From Micrococcales bacterium (GTDB lineage: Bacteria > Actinomycetota > Actinomycetes > Actinomycetales > Cellulomonadaceae): a stretch of DNA of 64,000 bases. The notes beneath the pieces were generated by a model. The model worked only from the letters and a program-made list of their open reading frames with translations, ran no database searches and was not told the DNA's origin. The position numbers and the translations under genes are program-made. This document shows positions 7,701 to 15,660 of this stretch, in pieces (position 1 is the first letter of the stretch; each line of letters begins with the position of its first letter). The stretch lies in assembly GCA_009779195.1 (NCBI GenBank), contig WRET01000004.1, positions 25,468 to 89,467 of the forward strand. The letters run 5' to 3'.

Positions 7701-8101
7701 CCCAGGGGGTCGTCCCCGACTCTCCTATGTGGTGCCAACGCACCGACCTGGGCCCTGTGGTCCCTGCGCGCTCCTTGGCCGACATCCTCGACCTCCCCTT
7801 GGCCAGCGACCTGGCCCCCGGCATCCCCGACGCTCCCGGTGACCGCGAACCTGTCCCGCCCGCTCTGGCCCCGTTCGTCACCACCGACACCTGGTACCTC
7901 CACGACGACCTCACCGTCGACGGCCACCAGGTCGAGTGGTGGGTCCATGACGCCCTCCCCCACGCTGTCCACCTGGCCGGTCTGGCCGCCGCCCTGGCCC
8001 AGCTCTGCGGCTGGTCGTCGCGCTGGGCACTAGAAACCGTCCTCACCGACCCCACCCGAGCCCCCGAAGCCCTCCTGGACACCACCTTCCTCGACGGCTG
8101 A
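4757..8101 (+). CDS. Sacsin N-terminal-like GHKL ATPase domain protein
   Basis: 1114 aa; 'LVDLAQNAADAA...', 'VANTGTPLDGPGVASLASMRASAKR', 'VGRFGVGFAAVRSVADEIEVRS' = GHKL/sacsin-type ATP-binding motifs. Confidence 0.75.
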   Translation: MIGPLGDSTDPFGTAGLREAVLTAWRASPARFREDANTEEDHARTYYRDRVLVDLAQNAADAAVRSGTPGRLLIRLETDGDAARLVVANTGTPLDGPGVASLASMRASAKRAPHTSRPPTDAQTTPDDRGIRGSEALPPLGGTGEPQPSRPAHQPQDLRTQPQQVVGRFGVGFAAVRSVADEIEVRSTTGTVRFGLAQTRALLADDGALADEVARRGDALPVLRLPLPGPADPWPGYDTAVVAHLRDDEALAAVRAQLAEVGDPMLLALPGLAEIVVETPEGSRRVADVADRWQVRTATGTHEAHLLADRPVEERDHHHWQVTWALPRHRQEAGPTVVHAPTPTDDLCTLPALLIATFPLDPTRRRVQQNPVTDALVTAAGDTYAALATDLVATGVDVSTLVPTMLPAGELDGRLHQAVVEALRHVPVLRGPTDMLVPADAVALAAPAGHDRPLVAALARRIPALVELPANPAALRVLGVAVRPLADIVEALPGANNDASCELVGSHDASLFAPDGWTDLYDALASVVPEQAEALAHLPVPLVDGRVVRGPRGTVVLDGPLHTSLTPRALAALTRWGLRIVHPHAAHGLWERLGAARCDALALLSYAQVRTAICDLQDEPPPCDVPAGTDDDGGRPRHGDCLSSYASASEPEPEPAGPVHPPSEGVDDAAGVVVVASGDTPVLGEVAAVVAELVALALPVPEQLAPTLGLVELPAADGDLVPAHGLVLPGSPAQHLFDDRVLTTVAPAVVDLLGEPVLRALGVRVGPVLVHVSDVVADPHGADDVDVDAWPDYLAWLGDRLGPGAWVGDLVAVADLDAVADDAWSTFLATLACDRDLRGALVNPVRTPQGAFSSYTAWWLTHRADLGLGTPFAIDDVPTWLVGWLPRVPAVLADTDDEIRRALGAVSAATTLDLPTWAKIGSTIAPGTLVDLPVAVQVWRALAAVPTQAPTRPEVFEGVHDLDAWVVPALVAPARAEMVRPAQGVVPDSPMWCQRTDLGPVVPARSLADILDLPLASDLAPGIPDAPGDREPVPPALAPFVTTDTWYLHDDLTVDGHQVEWWVHDALPHAVHLAGLAAALAQLCGWSSRWALETVLTDPTRAPEALLDTTFLDG
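6236..6297. repeat. Perfect 26-bp inverted repeat (hairpin, 10-nt loop) within the sacsin-like CDS
   Basis: Left arm GGTGCGAACAACGACGCGTCGTGCGA (6236-6261), loop gctggtgggt, right arm TCGCACGACGCGTCGTTGTTCGCACC (6272-6297); exact reverse complements. Confidence 0.95.
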
Positions 8102-8823: not shown

Positions 8824-10161
8824 TCAGAACGGGTGGCGTTCCTGTATCGCCTCGGCCAGGGTGGGGCCGTGGTCGCCGAGACGCCACGAGGTCCACCCGT
8901 CGAACTCGCCTTCGGAACGGGCTGCGGCGGAGGCTGCGGCTGAGGGGTCGTCGAAACGGCGCCCGTCGGGCAGCTCGATCAACCCGTCGATCCGCAGACG
9001 GGCGATGATCCTCTCCCCGCGGCGGCGGCGCAGCCACACCAGCTGGGTGGGGCCGACCTCGTTGACCAGCTCGACCAGCTCGGGGTACGCGACAGTTGAG
9101 GTGCGGGCCAGGTGCGGACGGTCGTCGAGCGCCGGGGGCAGGCCCAGCGGCGCGGCGAGGATGTCGAGCTTGCGCAGCACTGCTGGCTCGGCCGGGCCCA
9201 GCGGTTCGAACGACGACGAGTCGGCAGACCGCGGCGGTTCGGCCAGCGCCGTGCGGGCGGGCTCAGGCTCACGGGCGGTGGGCCTGCTCTTGCTCGACGA
9301 CCAGGACGAGTCCCCGGACGACCATGACGAGTCCGAACCCCCAGACGACCAGGACGAGTCCTTGCCCGACGACCACGACGAGTCTTTGCCCGCCGCCGAC
9401 CATGACGAGTCGGTGCGTGGGCGGGGCATCGTCTGGGCCACCGCCGGTGACAGGGGCGGGGTGGGCCGCACGTCGTCGTTGACCGCAGCGCGGTGTTCTT
9501 CGACGATGGGCTGGGCGCTGGTGATATCCGGTTCGAACATACCGCCGTGCACCAGGCGCAACCCGGTCGGCTCAGGCATCCGACGCCGCGACTCGTGGGT
9601 GGCGTAGGGGCCGATGGCCAGCAGCCGGGTCTCGTCCTCACCGATCACGACCCCGACCTGGAGGATGTCGAGGCGGCCACCACGGGCCTGCCAGAAATCG
9701 GCCGCGTCATGGGCTTCGGGGGCGATGTCGGCACACAGCACGACGATCCGCGGACCGGCGCGGTGCGGGGCCTGGATGCCGAACGGCAGACCAGCGCGGA
9801 ACGTGTTGAAGTCCCGGGCGAACCGCGACGGGTCGGTCGGTTGGTAGACCTGGCCGAAGTCTGTCTCGGTCATACGTCCGGCGGTGCCGGCCCGGCGCAG
9901 GGCGGACAAGAACGCGTCGTGGTCGAGCTGGTGGACGACCTCGATCGTCACCGGACGTCCCGTCGGGTCCAGGGCGAGCAGGTCGGGCAGGCCCGAGCCT
10001 TCACGCCCGTCGTGCTCGTGGACGACGAACAGCGGCTCGGGTACCACCGCCTGGAGGTTGTGCGTCACGACAGCCCGCACCTCAGCGGTGAACGTGCTGG
10101 CCCTCGGCTGCATCGGCTGCACCAGCCGGACGCGCCCAGAACCCAGCTCGAACAGCGGCAT
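8824..10161 (-). CDS. Putative PDDEXK/NucS-like (degenerate) + Ser/Trp-rich repeat linker + RAMA-like domain protein
   Basis: ATG at 10161 (MPLFELGSGRVRLVQ...). N-term 'GSGLPDLLALDPTGRPVTIEVV' resembles PD...ExK-type nucleases with K replaced by V; C-term 'RLRIDGLIELPDGRRFDDPSAAASAAARSEGEFDGWTSWRL' resembles RAMA (S-x-A-A ... GWxxW). Domain calls are by eye only. Confidence 0.5.
   Translation of the reverse strand: MPLFELGSGRVRLVQPMQPRASTFTAEVRAVVTHNLQAVVPEPLFVVHEHDGREGSGLPDLLALDPTGRPVTIEVVHQLDHDAFLSALRRAGTAGRMTETDFGQVYQPTDPSRFARDFNTFRAGLPFGIQAPHRAGPRIVVLCADIAPEAHDAADFWQARGGRLDILQVGVVIGEDETRLLAIGPYATHESRRRMPEPTGLRLVHGGMFEPDITSAQPIVEEHRAAVNDDVRPTPPLSPAVAQTMPRPRTDSSWSAAGKDSSWSSGKDSSWSSGGSDSSWSSGDSSWSSSKSRPTAREPEPARTALAEPPRSADSSSFEPLGPAEPAVLRKLDILAAPLGLPPALDDRPHLARTSTVAYPELVELVNEVGPTQLVWLRRRRGERIIARLRIDGLIELPDGRRFDDPSAAASAAARSEGEFDGWTSWRLGDHGPTLAEAIQERHPF
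9289..9411 (-). repeat. Degenerate tandem repeat encoding five DSSWS(S/A) units
   Basis: Minus-strand translation TDSSWSAAGKDSSWSSGKDSSWSSGGSDSSWSSGDSSWSSSK. Confidence 0.85.
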
Positions 10162-10383
10162 GTCGACCCTCTCAACGCCCGGCCCGCGGCTCAGCGGGAT
10201 GCTGGAGTCAAGCCTCTCACGAGTCACGGGTAGAAAGGCCCTATCTGCCCCTGCTTCGTCCGAAATAGTCGCGTCTTCACACCCCCGGCCCCCTCAGGCC
10301 CCGTCCGCCAGCTGCTGGGATGTGCTTCCGTGCACATATTGGCCTGCCGAATCCACCACGAGGACCGACGGCCTCCCGATAGT

Positions 10384-13300
10384 GTGGAGGACGTGGGCAA
10401 CCGTCGGTACGTCGCGTTCGTCGCCCCGCGCCAGGACGACCCAGGCGAAGACCGTCGCCTGCAAGCACAGGTCGACGTCGTGCGGCGGTGGTGGGCTGTG
10501 CTGCCCGCGCCCCAGGTCCTGACCCCGGCGTGGCAACCTGGGCAGACGACCCGCAACGCTATGTCCTTGCTGGCAGACCGGCTCACGCAGGTGCGTACCG
10601 GCTCGTCTGTCGGGCTGTATGTCACCGGCCACGGCGACGAGGGGCCGGTCTCCACCGAGTACCGCCTGCGTATCGACGGCGGCAGCTACGACCCGGCGGC
10701 CCTGCTGGAGGCGATCTGGGACTCTGACGCCGACGACGCGCTGGTGGTGCTCGACTCGTGCTCGGCCTACCGGTTCGCCCAGCGTGCCGCGAACCTGTAC
10801 GGCGACCGGGTGCGCCAGCCGGTCCGCACCCCGCCGAAGATGGTGCTGGTGGTGCCCGGGGTGGCGACGGACCTACGCACCGAACCGCGGTTCGAAGAGC
10901 TCACAGACATTATCGCCGAGGCGTTGTGCCTGGTCAGCATGGACAACGGGTATGTCGAACCGTATACAGCGCTGGCCGACGAGCCGTACCTGACCCCCGC
11001 CCGCCTGCGCGCCGCCCTGGAGGCTGCCCCCGGTGAGCTGGCCCGTGTGGGACGCCCGGCGATGATCCGCCCCCAGGTGCAGGCGTTCGCCGCCGAGTGG
11101 GACGAACCGTGCCCCGCCTTGCCCAACCCGGCCTACGACCCAGCAGCCCAGGCTGCCAACCCGGCCACGGCGGACCTGACGCTGAGCGCTGAGACGATCG
11201 ACGCCTACACCCGGCTGGCGTGCGCGGCTGCGGACCCTCGCCCCCCTGCCGCAGACCGTCGTGACCTGCCGATCGTCGCGTTCGGGTCGTTCGTCGTCAG
11301 CGGTGACGGCCGGGGGATGGACCGACCTGTCATCGACCCGACGAAGGTGGCCGCCCGCCCGCCGGACCCACACAAGGTCGACAAAACCCCCCGGGGCAAC
11401 CCGGCCTGGTACTTCACAGGCCGCGCTCCGGTCATGGCGCAGGTCGTGCGGTGGTTGACCAACGGTGACGAACCGCTGCTGGTGGTCACTGGCGCACGTG
11501 GCACCGGCAAGTCGGCTGTGCTGTCGCGTGCTGTGACTCTCGCCGACCCTGGGTTCGGCTCCCGGTACCCGACGTTGGCGCAGGCGGTCCCACCGAGGCT
11601 GGTCCCCCCGGCCGGGTCGGTGCACGTGGCGGTCGACGCCCGGGGCCGTACCAGCGAACGTGTCGCCGAGCTCATCCTTGGTGCGCTCGGTGCCGCACGC
11701 ACCGACGAACCGGGCACGTCGATCCACGAACGTCTCGCCCAAGGGCTCAAGGCTGCCAGCACCGACAAGACCGGTGGGTTGCCGGTGTGCGTGGTGGTGG
11801 ACTCGGTCGACGAGTCCGTCCAGCCCGAGGCGCTGGTCCACGAGGTGCTCGGCGCCCTGGTGCGCACCTGCCACGACGACGGGCGCCCAGCGGCCCGAGT
11901 GCTGGTCGGGGTGCGTCACGACGCCACCAGCGACACTGACCTGCTCACGCTCGTCGAAGCGTTGGCGTCGCACACGGTCGTGCGCACCGACCACGACGTC
12001 GCTGGGGAGGTCCGTTCCTACTGCTTGCGGCTGCTGAGGTCCCCGGGGTCGCCCTACTACGACCGGCCCGCCGACGCCGAGGCTGTCGCTGACCTGCTCG
12101 GCCGCTCTGACCAGCCCAGCTTTGTGGATGTGCGGATCGTCGCCGAGTCGCTGGCGAGCAGCCCGCAGGTGGCTGACCTGGACACCCTCGACCTCGTCGG
12201 CGACGTGCTGTTGCGGGCTCTGCGCCGCACGTTGGCCGACCAGGCGGCGACCACAGCCCGGCCGGCCACCCAGTACCTGGCTGCTTTGCGCGCCCTGGCG
12301 TTCGCCCGCGGGGCCGGGACCCCCTGGGGTGCGGTGTGGCCGACGCTGGCCAGCGCTGTGGCCGACAAGGACGTGGGTAACGACCTGCTGCGCGAGCTGT
12401 TGCGCGGACCGCTCGCGGCCTTCGTCATGACAGCCTCCGAAGACGGCCAGCGGGTGTTCCGCCCAGCCCACGCGACGATCGCCGACATGCTGCGCCAACG
12501 TCCTGACGCCCTCGTCGACGGCCTGGTCGTCGAACCAGAAGAGGTGGTCGAGGCCCGGATCGCCCGACGGTTGGGCGCCTTGGTCGGCGACACCCCCGAC
12601 CCGTACCTGCGCCGCCACCTCGTCGCCCACGCCGCTGCCGGGTCTGTGCTCGTCGACGAGGTCGTCCCTGCGGCGTTCTTGCCCTGGGAGACCAGCGGTG
12701 ACCTGCGCCGTCGGCTGGGTCTGCCGCTGCCCGACGGGCAGGCGACCCGTTCGCTGGCCGCATGGGCCGCCGTCGAGCCTCACCTGGACCAGATCCCCAC
12801 GTTGGGACGTCGTCGCCAGGCCCTGCGTTTCGCGTTGCTGCGCACCCCCGACGACGGGCCCGACGAGCTGGGGTGGCGCACCTGGACCGCCCCGCGCAAC
12901 GTCCTGGCCGCGACGACCGGACCTGTGGCGGCCCTGGCGTTCGGGCAGGTCGGCGGGCGCTCGCTGCTCGTGGGGGCCAGCGGTGACGAGGTGCGCTGCT
13001 GGGACCCGGCCACCGGCCAGGTGGTCGGCGAACCCCTGCGCGGGCACGAAGGCAGAGTGCTCTCTTTGGCGTTCGGGCAGGTCAACGGGCGGATGGTCTT
13101 GGCCACCGGTGGTGCCGACCAGACGGTGCGCCTGTGGAACCCGGCCACTGGGGAACAGCTGGGTGTGCTCAACGGGCACACCGGGGCTGTGTGGGCGGTG
13201 ACGTTCGGGCGGATCGACCAACGTGTGGTGCTGGCCACCGGCTCGGCGGACCAGACGGCCCAGCTGTGGGACCTGCCGGCCGGAGGCCCGCCAGCCCCGC

Positions 13301-15243
13301 ACGAGCCGCTGCCGCACCGCGCAGCAGTCCGCACGGTCGCGTTCGGCACGGTCGCCGGTGCCACAGCCTTGGCCACTGGCTGTGCCGACGGTACTGCCCG
13401 GCTGTGGGACCCGTGCACCAACCAACGGATCGACCGCCCGCTGCGCCACGGCAACCGGGTGCTCGCGGTGAAGTTCGGACCAGCAGGGGCCTCTGGCACC
13501 GCACCTTTGGCCACCAGCTCCGACGACGGCTCGGTGCGGGTGTGGGACCCGGTCTCCGGTTCTCTGGTCGCGCGGGCCAACCACCCTGGCCTGGTCGAGA
13601 CGATCGCCTGGGGCCAGGCGTCGGGGCGGATCTTGCTGGCCACTGGCGGCCTGGACCGCACAGCCCGGCTGTGGGACGCGTCCGACATGAGCTGGAACGC
13701 CCCCGACGAAGAAGTCCTGCCCCTGGTCGGAGACCCGTTGCGGGGCCACGGCCGTTCCGTGCAGGCGGTGGCGTTCGGGCGGGTCGACGGCCGGGTGGTC
13801 GTGGCCACAGGTTCCGACGACCGCACCCTGCGGCTGTGGGACCCTGCCCGTGAGCTGGTCCGAGGCAGGTCCGGGCGTCCGGCCTCCGCCGCGCTGCCCC
13901 TAGCCCGGCCACAAGGCGGCAGGCACCGCGCCTACGACCAGGCTCCCACCGGCGCACACTCTCGCTACGAGACCGGTCCTGGTTGGTCCGACCAGCCAGG
14001 ACCCGGCGCCCAACGGTACGCTCCCACCCCTGAAGAGCTCGCCGAGGTCGAGGCGCTCGCCGCTGAGCTGCTCGGTGACATGCCACTACCACCACCACCG
14101 CAGCCGGACCCGACCCCCGAACAGCTCGCCGAGGTCGACGCGCTCGCCGCTGAGCTGTTCGGTGACATGCAGCGACCACCGCAGCCGGATCCGACTCCCG
14201 AACAGCTGGCCGAGGTCGACGCGCTCGCCGCTGAGCTGCTCGGTGACGATCTGGCCGCTGTGCACCTTTCTGGCCCGGACGGTTCGACCAACCCGGTGTC
14301 GACTCCTCCCCGCGGCACGCCCCAGGCGGTGGCGCTCGGCGAAGACGACCCGAGCCCTGTGGTCCACGCCGTCGCAGCCGCACCCGGGGTGCTGGCCACC
14401 GGTGGCGCCGACCACGCCGTGCGGTTGTGGGACCCGGTCACCGGCCAGGGGCTGCGCCACCTGCGAGGACATGACGGTCCCGTGCTTGCGGCGGCCTTCG
14501 GGTGCGCCGGCACGCTGCTGGCCACCGCCGGCGACGACGGCACTGTCCGGTTGTGGGACCTGGTCACCGGCCAGCCAGCGTGTGCGCCGTTGTCCACCTC
14601 GGCGCTTGGTCTGGCTTTCGGCGAGGTGGACGGGCGCACCGTCGTGGTGACCGGCGGCCCCGACCGCACAGTGCGGATGTGGGACGTGACCACGGGCCGT
14701 CCGGTCGGTGACGCGTGGCACGGGCACAACGGCTGGGTGAGCACTGTCGCTGCCGGGCAGGTCGCTGGCACCACAGTGGTGGCCACCGGCAGCTTTGACT
14801 GCACGGTGCGGCTGTGGGACCCCGACGGTTCTTGCCGCGCCGTCCTGGCTGGCCACGACGGCCCTGTCGAGTCCGTCGCCTTCGGCACCGTCGATGGCAC
14901 GCCCGTCCTGGCCACCGTCGCCGACGACCGCACCGCCCGTTTGTGGGACCCGGCCACCGGCGAGCTTGTCGGGGTCCTCACCGGTCACCGCGGCGCGGTC
15001 GGCGCCGTCGCGTTCGGCACTGTCGACGGGACGACTGTCATGGCCACGGCCGCCGACGACCGGACCGTGCGGCTGTGGAACCCTGCCACCGGCCGTCATG
15101 TCGGCGAAAGCATCCCCGTCCTGGTCCGCGTCCACGACCTCGCTTTCGCCGACGACGGCCGCCTCGCCCTGGCCACCGACACCGGCACCGCCGTCGTCAC
15201 CCCCGCTCTGCTCGTCGCCCAAACCATCCCATCACTGGCGTAG
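10384..15243 (+). CDS. Caspase-like protease domain + STAND/NACHT-type P-loop NTPase + WD40 repeats (two propellers)
   Basis: Likely GTG start (10384 or 10393). 'GLYVTGHGDEG' and 'ALVVLDSCSAYR' = candidate His/Cys dyad; Walker A 'GARGTGKS' (11491-11514); Walker B-like 'VCVVVDSVDE' (11785-11814); 13 readable WD motifs (e.g. VRLWNPATG, ARLWDPATG). Confidence 0.85.
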   Translation: MEDVGNRRYVAFVAPRQDDPGEDRRLQAQVDVVRRWWAVLPAPQVLTPAWQPGQTTRNAMSLLADRLTQVRTGSSVGLYVTGHGDEGPVSTEYRLRIDGGSYDPAALLEAIWDSDADDALVVLDSCSAYRFAQRAANLYGDRVRQPVRTPPKMVLVVPGVATDLRTEPRFEELTDIIAEALCLVSMDNGYVEPYTALADEPYLTPARLRAALEAAPGELARVGRPAMIRPQVQAFAAEWDEPCPALPNPAYDPAAQAANPATADLTLSAETIDAYTRLACAAADPRPPAADRRDLPIVAFGSFVVSGDGRGMDRPVIDPTKVAARPPDPHKVDKTPRGNPAWYFTGRAPVMAQVVRWLTNGDEPLLVVTGARGTGKSAVLSRAVTLADPGFGSRYPTLAQAVPPRLVPPAGSVHVAVDARGRTSERVAELILGALGAARTDEPGTSIHERLAQGLKAASTDKTGGLPVCVVVDSVDESVQPEALVHEVLGALVRTCHDDGRPAARVLVGVRHDATSDTDLLTLVEALASHTVVRTDHDVAGEVRSYCLRLLRSPGSPYYDRPADAEAVADLLGRSDQPSFVDVRIVAESLASSPQVADLDTLDLVGDVLLRALRRTLADQAATTARPATQYLAALRALAFARGAGTPWGAVWPTLASAVADKDVGNDLLRELLRGPLAAFVMTASEDGQRVFRPAHATIADMLRQRPDALVDGLVVEPEEVVEARIARRLGALVGDTPDPYLRRHLVAHAAAGSVLVDEVVPAAFLPWETSGDLRRRLGLPLPDGQATRSLAAWAAVEPHLDQIPTLGRRRQALRFALLRTPDDGPDELGWRTWTAPRNVLAATTGPVAALAFGQVGGRSLLVGASGDEVRCWDPATGQVVGEPLRGHEGRVLSLAFGQVNGRMVLATGGADQTVRLWNPATGEQLGVLNGHTGAVWAVTFGRIDQRVVLATGSADQTAQLWDLPAGGPPAPHEPLPHRAAVRTVAFGTVAGATALATGCADGTARLWDPCTNQRIDRPLRHGNRVLAVKFGPAGASGTAPLATSSDDGSVRVWDPVSGSLVARANHPGLVETIAWGQASGRILLATGGLDRTARLWDASDMSWNAPDEEVLPLVGDPLRGHGRSVQAVAFGRVDGRVVVATGSDDRTLRLWDPARELVRGRSGRPASAALPLARPQGGRHRAYDQAPTGAHSRYETGPGWSDQPGPGAQRYAPTPEELAEVEALAAELLGDMPLPPPPQPDPTPEQLAEVDALAAELFGDMQRPPQPDPTPEQLAEVDALAAELLGDDLAAVHLSGPDGSTNPVSTPPRGTPQAVALGEDDPSPVVHAVAAAPGVLATGGADHAVRLWDPVTGQGLRHLRGHDGPVLAAAFGCAGTLLATAGDDGTVRLWDLVTGQPACAPLSTSALGLAFGEVDGRTVVVTGGPDRTVRMWDVTTGRPVGDAWHGHNGWVSTVAAGQVAGTTVVATGSFDCTVRLWDPDGSCRAVLAGHDGPVESVAFGTVDGTPVLATVADDRTARLWDPATGELVGVLTGHRGAVGAVAFGTVDGTTVMATAADDRTVRLWNPATGRHVGESIPVLVRVHDLAFADDGRLALATDTGTAVVTPALLVAQTIPSLA
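14026..14247 (+). repeat. Three copies of a coding repeat TPE(E/Q)LAEV(E/D)ALAAEL(L/F)GD between WD40 blocks
   Basis: Copies at 14026-14079, 14113-14166, 14194-14247; near-identical nucleotides. Confidence 0.9.
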
Positions 15244-15252
15244 GGTGGCGGT

Positions 15253-15660
15253 GTGTCGTCGGTCGCTTGTTTCTACCGGGTGGATCGGGTCGAGCTGGAG
15301 GCGAGCCCGGTCTCGGAGGTGATCGGGGAGGGTACTGACCTGGGGCTGGGGTATCCGTGGTCAGGGCACGTCATGATGGCGCTGCTGGACTACCTGGACG
15401 AGATCGAGATCGGTGTCGGGCTCGACCTGGATATCGCCGACGACGACGACGCACCGCTCGTCGCGTTCTTCACCCGCGCCGACGCCCCGGCGATCCTGGG
15501 GTTGCAGGTCGCGCAGATCCTCGGCGACGAGACCATGTTCGACGACCTCGGGCTCGACGACGAGGAGATCGTCGACGCTGTCCGCGACTCGGTCGAGACG
15601 TTGCGCGAGCTCATCGACGGTACCGGACCAGACGAGGTCCTCGTCGTCGCGGTCTACTGA
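15253..15660 (+). CDS. Small acidic hypothetical protein
   Basis: GTG start 9 nt after the WD40 gene stop; 135 aa, Asp/Glu-rich; same strand, likely cotranscribed. Confidence 0.6.
   Translation: MSSVACFYRVDRVELEASPVSEVIGEGTDLGLGYPWSGHVMMALLDYLDEIEIGVGLDLDIADDDDAPLVAFFTRADAPAILGLQVAQILGDETMFDDLGLDDEEIVDAVRDSVETLRELIDGTGPDEVLVVAVY

Follow-up and report, generated by a model that had tools for sequence, protein, structure and literature searches.

A diverged caspase-nSTAND1-WD40 protein with lipase-associated relatives, encoded beside a pseudo-NucS/RAMA gene of separate distribution in a Cellulomonadaceae genome

The conflict locus analysed here, in a 64,000-nucleotide stretch of DNA (hereafter the window), is likely to consist of a single sporadically acquired gene encoding a self-contained caspase-nSTAND1-WD40 sensor, switch and executioner, while the divergent RAMA gene next to it is likely an unrelated gene that was relocated to this site. 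The caspase gene lies on the plus strand at positions 10330-15243 and encodes 1,637 amino acids from a GTG start. Third-codon GC was strong in this open reading frame as well as in its two neighbours, a minus-strand gene with a RAMA domain and a 135-aa acidic ORF, and the coordinates of all three agreed with the preliminary description of this DNA.

That description had read a caspase-like His/Cys pair, a P-loop NTPase and two WD40 blocks in the 1,637-aa protein, and these readings were borne out by motif, profile and fold matches. The TGHG and DSCSA motifs are found at residues 99-102 and 142-146, respectively, and contain the putative catalytic residues His101 (codon 10630-10632), which is invariant in a 16-row alignment, and Cys144 (codon 10759-10761), which is at least 90% conserved in the same alignment. 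When the N-terminal 360 aa were shuffled 5,000 times, such a motif pair arose by chance once. The Pfam Peptidase_C14 model had no match in this protein and none across the whole genome; it did match the N-terminal regions of six of the nine relatives run beside it. When the N-terminal regions of the 1,637-aa protein and 15 relatives (the 16 rows) were combined into a profile and compared with the PDB, metacaspase-4 was found (E=4.7e-7). Furthermore, an AF2 model of the caspase domain, with a modest mean pLDDT of 68.9 and a better core, matched the MALT1 paracaspase and metacaspases with a Foldseek probability of 1.00. The profile match, the fold match and the conserved His101/Cys144 therefore make the caspase call solid, and the domain (positions 10402-11094, about residues 25-255) is a diverged member of the fold that lies below the Pfam C14 threshold. 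The nSTAND1 NTPase core (PF20703, 31.4 bits against a cut-off of 27.1) occupies residues 360-550 (11407-11979), with Walker A, GARGTGKS, at residues 388-395 (11491-11514) and Walker B, VVVDSVDE, at residues 488-495 (11791-11814). WD40 repeats (PF00400, 223.6 bits in 12 stretches) form a first block at 12916-13854 (about residues 863-1175) and a second one at 14362-15174 (about residues 1345-1615); the linker between the blocks carries 2.6 copies of an 81-bp tandem repeat (14026-14247) that codes for PTPEQLAEVDALAAELLGD-type repeats. Overall, the protein is solidly identified as a caspase-fold peptidase with an intact His101/Cys144 pair, followed in the same chain by an nSTAND1 NTPase and a pair of WD40 blocks.

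Proteins of this kind are already described. The metacaspase-NACHT-WD40 architecture is widely distributed among prokaryotes (Asplund-Samuelsson et al. 2012, PMC3501461), and it shares with the 1,637-aa protein the domain order of caspase, STAND-class NTPase and WD40 repeats. In contrast to that architecture, Pfam assigns the NTPase of the 1,637-aa protein to nSTAND1 and not to NACHT, its caspase is under the C14 threshold, and its two WD40 blocks are parted by a linker that contains a 27-aa repeat. The protein is thus a diverged member that adds to the actinobacterial caspase-STAND-WD40 proteins. Caspase-STAND proteins are rare in the order, where 2 of 248 genomes have one, and were found in 17 of the 396 genomes of the class, the matches in the class being mostly via the STAND part; a search for a second copy in the genome itself returned only the 1,637-aa protein. 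For comparison, the neighbourhoods of 23 relatives were compiled, comprising 15 chromosomal loci of actinobacteria and 8 loci on Streptomyces plasmids. Both the His and the Cys are kept ahead of the STAND module in 13 of the chromosomal and all eight plasmid relatives. The gene in the window is most likely a sporadically acquired, solitary sensor-effector.

The loci of these relatives revealed a recurrent partner. Clustering of the neighbour proteins of the 15 chromosomal relatives yielded two alpha/beta-hydrolase families, K1 (Abhydrolase/PGAP1-like, mostly under the Pfam cut-offs), which adjoins the caspase-STAND-WD40 gene in six of these loci, and K3 (LCAT, PF02450, above the cut-off), which adjoins it in four; the remaining five loci have no hydrolase. 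As an independent check, the plasmid relatives were inspected, and in 8/8 of them a hydrolase is encoded directly upstream, either K1 (four) or K3 (four). No K1 or K3 hydrolases were detected in 1.15 Mb of unrelated control loci. A lipase-like alpha/beta-hydrolase is therefore adjacent in 18 of the 23 relatives, although these loci share ancestry and do not represent 18 independent events. In VMAP ternary conflict systems, caspase domains always stand beside an alpha/beta-hydrolase (Kaur et al. 2020, PMC7159879), a pairing that the relatives reproduce with their K1 or LCAT-type hydrolases. Unlike the VMAP systems, they come with no MoxR, vWA or VMAP genes, and no hydrolase gene flanks the member in the window. 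Since neither a K1 nor a K3 HMM match was obtained in the 64-kb window, its protein is the hydrolase-less version. The EACC1-caspase two-gene system (System 4 of Kaur 2020) also has no counterpart here, as no same-strand EACC1 gene precedes the caspase gene; on its 5' side lies the divergent RAMA gene, and the next supported same-strand gene upstream is a core gene for a 1,114-aa protein.

The RAMA gene was characterized separately. Its minus-strand ORF spans 8824-10227, and orthologues together with an upstream GAGAGG point to ATG 10161 as the likely start, giving a protein of 445 aa (8824-10161) and a gap of 168 bp to the caspase gene. The RAMA-like domain of the preliminary description was confirmed at 8851-9048 (PF18755, 43.9 bits against a cut-off of 35.2), and no other Pfam domain was found in this protein. 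The same description had suggested a PDDEXK/NucS-like nuclease domain, of which the fold stands and the nuclease does not. A model of the N-terminal domain (9607-10161) built from 20 orthologues, with a core pLDDT of about 90, found its best solved-structure matches in NucS/EndoMS (2vld and 5gke; E=1.6e-4 to 1e-3, probability 1.00, with TM-scores of only 0.33-0.37), and when the profile of the domain was compared with that of the true NucS proteins of the same family, the same motif was aligned (E=1.7e-4, at a probability of only 49%). NucS/EndoMS is thus the closest structural match and shares the PD-(D/E)XK fold. In contrast to NucS/EndoMS, the Lys position of the E-x-K motif is V, A, T or G in all 20 aligned RAMA-protein sequences, the Asp position is variable, and the domain is fused to RAMA; the catalytic Glu is retained in 16 of the 20. 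Judged from these residues, the domain appears to be a NucS-like fold without the active site of a working PD-(D/E)XK enzyme, and it is presumably catalytically dead. A separate true NucS gene exists elsewhere in the genome. The reading of modified DNA by RAMA domains is disputed, and no 6mA preference was found for MPND (PMC9963953). The pseudo-NucS/RAMA protein probably binds DNA or reads marks on the chromosome.

The distribution of this gene differs from that of the caspase gene. Orthologues are present in 143 of the 150 genomes of the family and in 22 of its 25 genera, and the carriers are Cellulomonadaceae by name (Cellulomonas, Cellulosimicrobium, Oerskovia, Isoptericola and others); the genome analysed here has a single copy, and none was found on plasmids. 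In 80 loci of relatives, the usual neighbours are an MTH1187-type gene (75/80), a Zn-dehydrogenase (58/80), an FAD-linked oxidase (46/80) and MetX (37/80), where the names that go beyond Pfam matches are those we take the sequences to indicate. MetY also belongs to this setting. The contig that contains the window carries no member of this set besides the RAMA gene, and MetY, MetX and Ppa are grouped on another contig of the same genome (C1), without the RAMA gene among them. Given this conserved home in relatives and the presence of MetY, MetX and Ppa elsewhere in this genome, the RAMA gene has therefore been relocated. The 1,114-aa gene that now adjoins it, ending at 8101, is itself a core gene (47 of 61 genomes) and lies roughly 120 kb from the RAMA gene in several relatives; its product has no Pfam match, and we take it to resemble sacsin N-terminal ATPase proteins. 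Most likely, a rearrangement placed the RAMA gene beside the caspase gene, and it is an unrelated resident there.

These data bear directly on a three-gene abortive-infection system, in which the RAMA/NucS-like protein would sense modified DNA and trigger the divergent caspase-STAND protein. The preliminary description had proposed such a union of modified-DNA sensing with proteolytic suicide, and the divergent orientation across 168 bp fits it, as do the RAMA and NucS-like PD-(D/E)XK folds, both of which were confirmed. However, the RAMA gene is core and free of caspase genes in every relative examined, its nuclease site appears dead, and it does not travel on plasmids. Neighbourhood conservation had been named beforehand as a check that could overturn the proposal, and the genes do not co-occur in either direction: no caspase-STAND, WD40 or 135-aa gene was found in the 80 named RAMA neighbourhoods, and no RAMA or NucS-like domain in the 15 chromosomal or eight plasmid caspase-STAND-WD40 loci. 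The exact caspase/RAMA/135-aa arrangement occurs in one genome only, and comparison across genomes has no power against a coupling that arose in that genome alone. With a near-universal RAMA gene, a caspase gene in 2/248 genomes and no co-occurrence either way, the proposed coupling is not supported; we regard the three-gene system as highly improbable, and a false lead tying modified-DNA sensing to caspase suicide is thereby removed. A genome-specific recruitment, in which the relocated pseudo-NucS/RAMA protein or the acidic protein became a new regulator of the lipase-less caspase-STAND-WD40 protein, is likewise highly improbable; if true, it would couple DNA-mark reading to proteolytic cell death in one genome.

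Two further explanations concern the caspase gene and its missing partner. The 135-aa ORF (15253-15660, plus strand) starts 9 bp after the caspase-gene stop, has a clearly coding base pattern and specifies a protein with a pI of 4.05 (32 acidic against 5 basic residues). It is probably co-transcribed with the caspase gene, and its product may modulate the caspase-STAND-WD40 protein. The close spacing on the same strand and the sporadic occurrence of both genes are consistent with a two-gene unit; the acidic protein would then serve as inhibitor, substrate or adaptor in place of the relatives' lipase-like partner. This pairing is not conserved, however, as no homologue of the ORF occurs in the 15 chromosomal caspase-STAND-WD40 loci, and searches of 248 genomes, plasmids, phages and the PDB gave nothing useful and no family; we consider the two-gene unit rather unlikely. 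Weak NCBIfam matches of the ORF to methylenetetrahydromethanopterin reductase were far under the cut-off and were judged to be chance. Alternatively, the locus could be the degenerate remnant of a system that once combined caspase-STAND with a lipase; it would have lost its executioner, and its caspase domain would be regulatory or self-processing. The adjacent hydrolase of most relatives, missing here, argues for this, as does the inactivity of many caspase domains in conflict systems (PMC7159879), and the missing lipase-like partner could mean that the gene on its own does not make up a complete system. Yet the His/Cys dyad and the Walker motifs of the 1,637-aa protein are intact, five of the 15 chromosomal relatives likewise lack a hydrolase, and the 64-kb window holds no trace of a hydrolase pseudogene, which leaves the degenerate locus doubtful.

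For the preferred reading of a self-contained protein, a mechanism can be proposed on the basis of STAND-protein biology (PMC7159879, together with general knowledge). The two WD40 propellers would bind a trigger, upon which the STAND module, with its intact Walker A and B motifs, would assemble into a ring through NTP-driven oligomerisation. The caspase domains, for which the fold and the His/Cys dyad were observed, would then be clustered and activated by proximity, and the activated caspase may cleave cellular or phage proteins, resulting in growth arrest or death. The animal APAF1 apoptosome likewise has a STAND NTPase with C-terminal WD40 propellers as the sensor. The 1,637-aa protein shares these two modules with APAF1, and no homology is claimed beyond them; in contrast to APAF1, it has its caspase within the same polypeptide and no CARD.

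Two side results of this work are more useful than the main finding. One is the near-universal, uncharacterised Cellulomonadaceae protein, in which an apparently dead NucS fold is fused to RAMA. The other is the hydrolase pairing in relatives on actinobacterial chromosomes and Streptomyces plasmids, which suggests a protease-plus-lipase death module that is absent from PADLOC. In the open literature, which our search covered with most subscription papers outside it, no caspase-STAND-WD40 plus lipase system was found described beyond the VMAP pairing (PMC7159879). PADLOC 2.0 returned no match over the caspase-STAND effector/sensor core of the 1,637-aa protein, and likewise none for the relatives; its matches were HEAT-ARM_XIII over the WD40 region and, for the RAMA protein, weak hits to PDC-S14 and PtuB.

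A lipase-like alpha/beta-hydrolase, belonging either to the Abhydrolase/PGAP1-like family K1 or to the LCAT-type family K3, was found to adjoin the caspase-nSTAND1-WD40 gene in 18 of the 23 loci of relatives (L100-L102, L104, L105, L108, L109, L111-L113, and L215-L222). No K1 or K3 hydrolase was detected in the control loci (1.15 Mb), and PADLOC returned zero matches for the six scanned members of these families. Some plasmids encode the caspase-STAND portion and the WD40 portion in two separate, overlapping genes. Toxin-antitoxin-like genes for a RES-domain protein and an XRE regulator lie downstream of the caspase-STAND-WD40 genes on the plasmids of L218, L221, and L222, and the Type I-E CRISPR genes Cse1 and Cse2 are located a few kb downstream on two Streptomyces plasmids (L216 and L217).

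In the closest relative from the same order (L064, 5756-10795), the HG motif of the caspase site has no match and SSCC replaces DSC. Judged from these residues, the site appears degraded, which suggests that the caspase domain can persist without catalysis.

The minus-strand protein (window 8824-10161) combines a NucS fold and a RAMA domain, connected by a long, variable linker, in one chain, and is near-universal in Cellulomonadaceae (orthologues L033-L052 and L135-L214). Its NucS fold is, by sequence, catalytically dead, and the protein is a candidate DNA-mark reader of the core genome. A 24/27-bp tandem repeat in its linker (9289-9411, minus strand) encodes DSSWSSG-type repeats. The linker separating the two WD40 blocks of the caspase protein contains an 81-bp tandem repeat of 2.6 copies (14026-14247, plus strand), encoding three near-identical, helical-looking 19-aa motifs.
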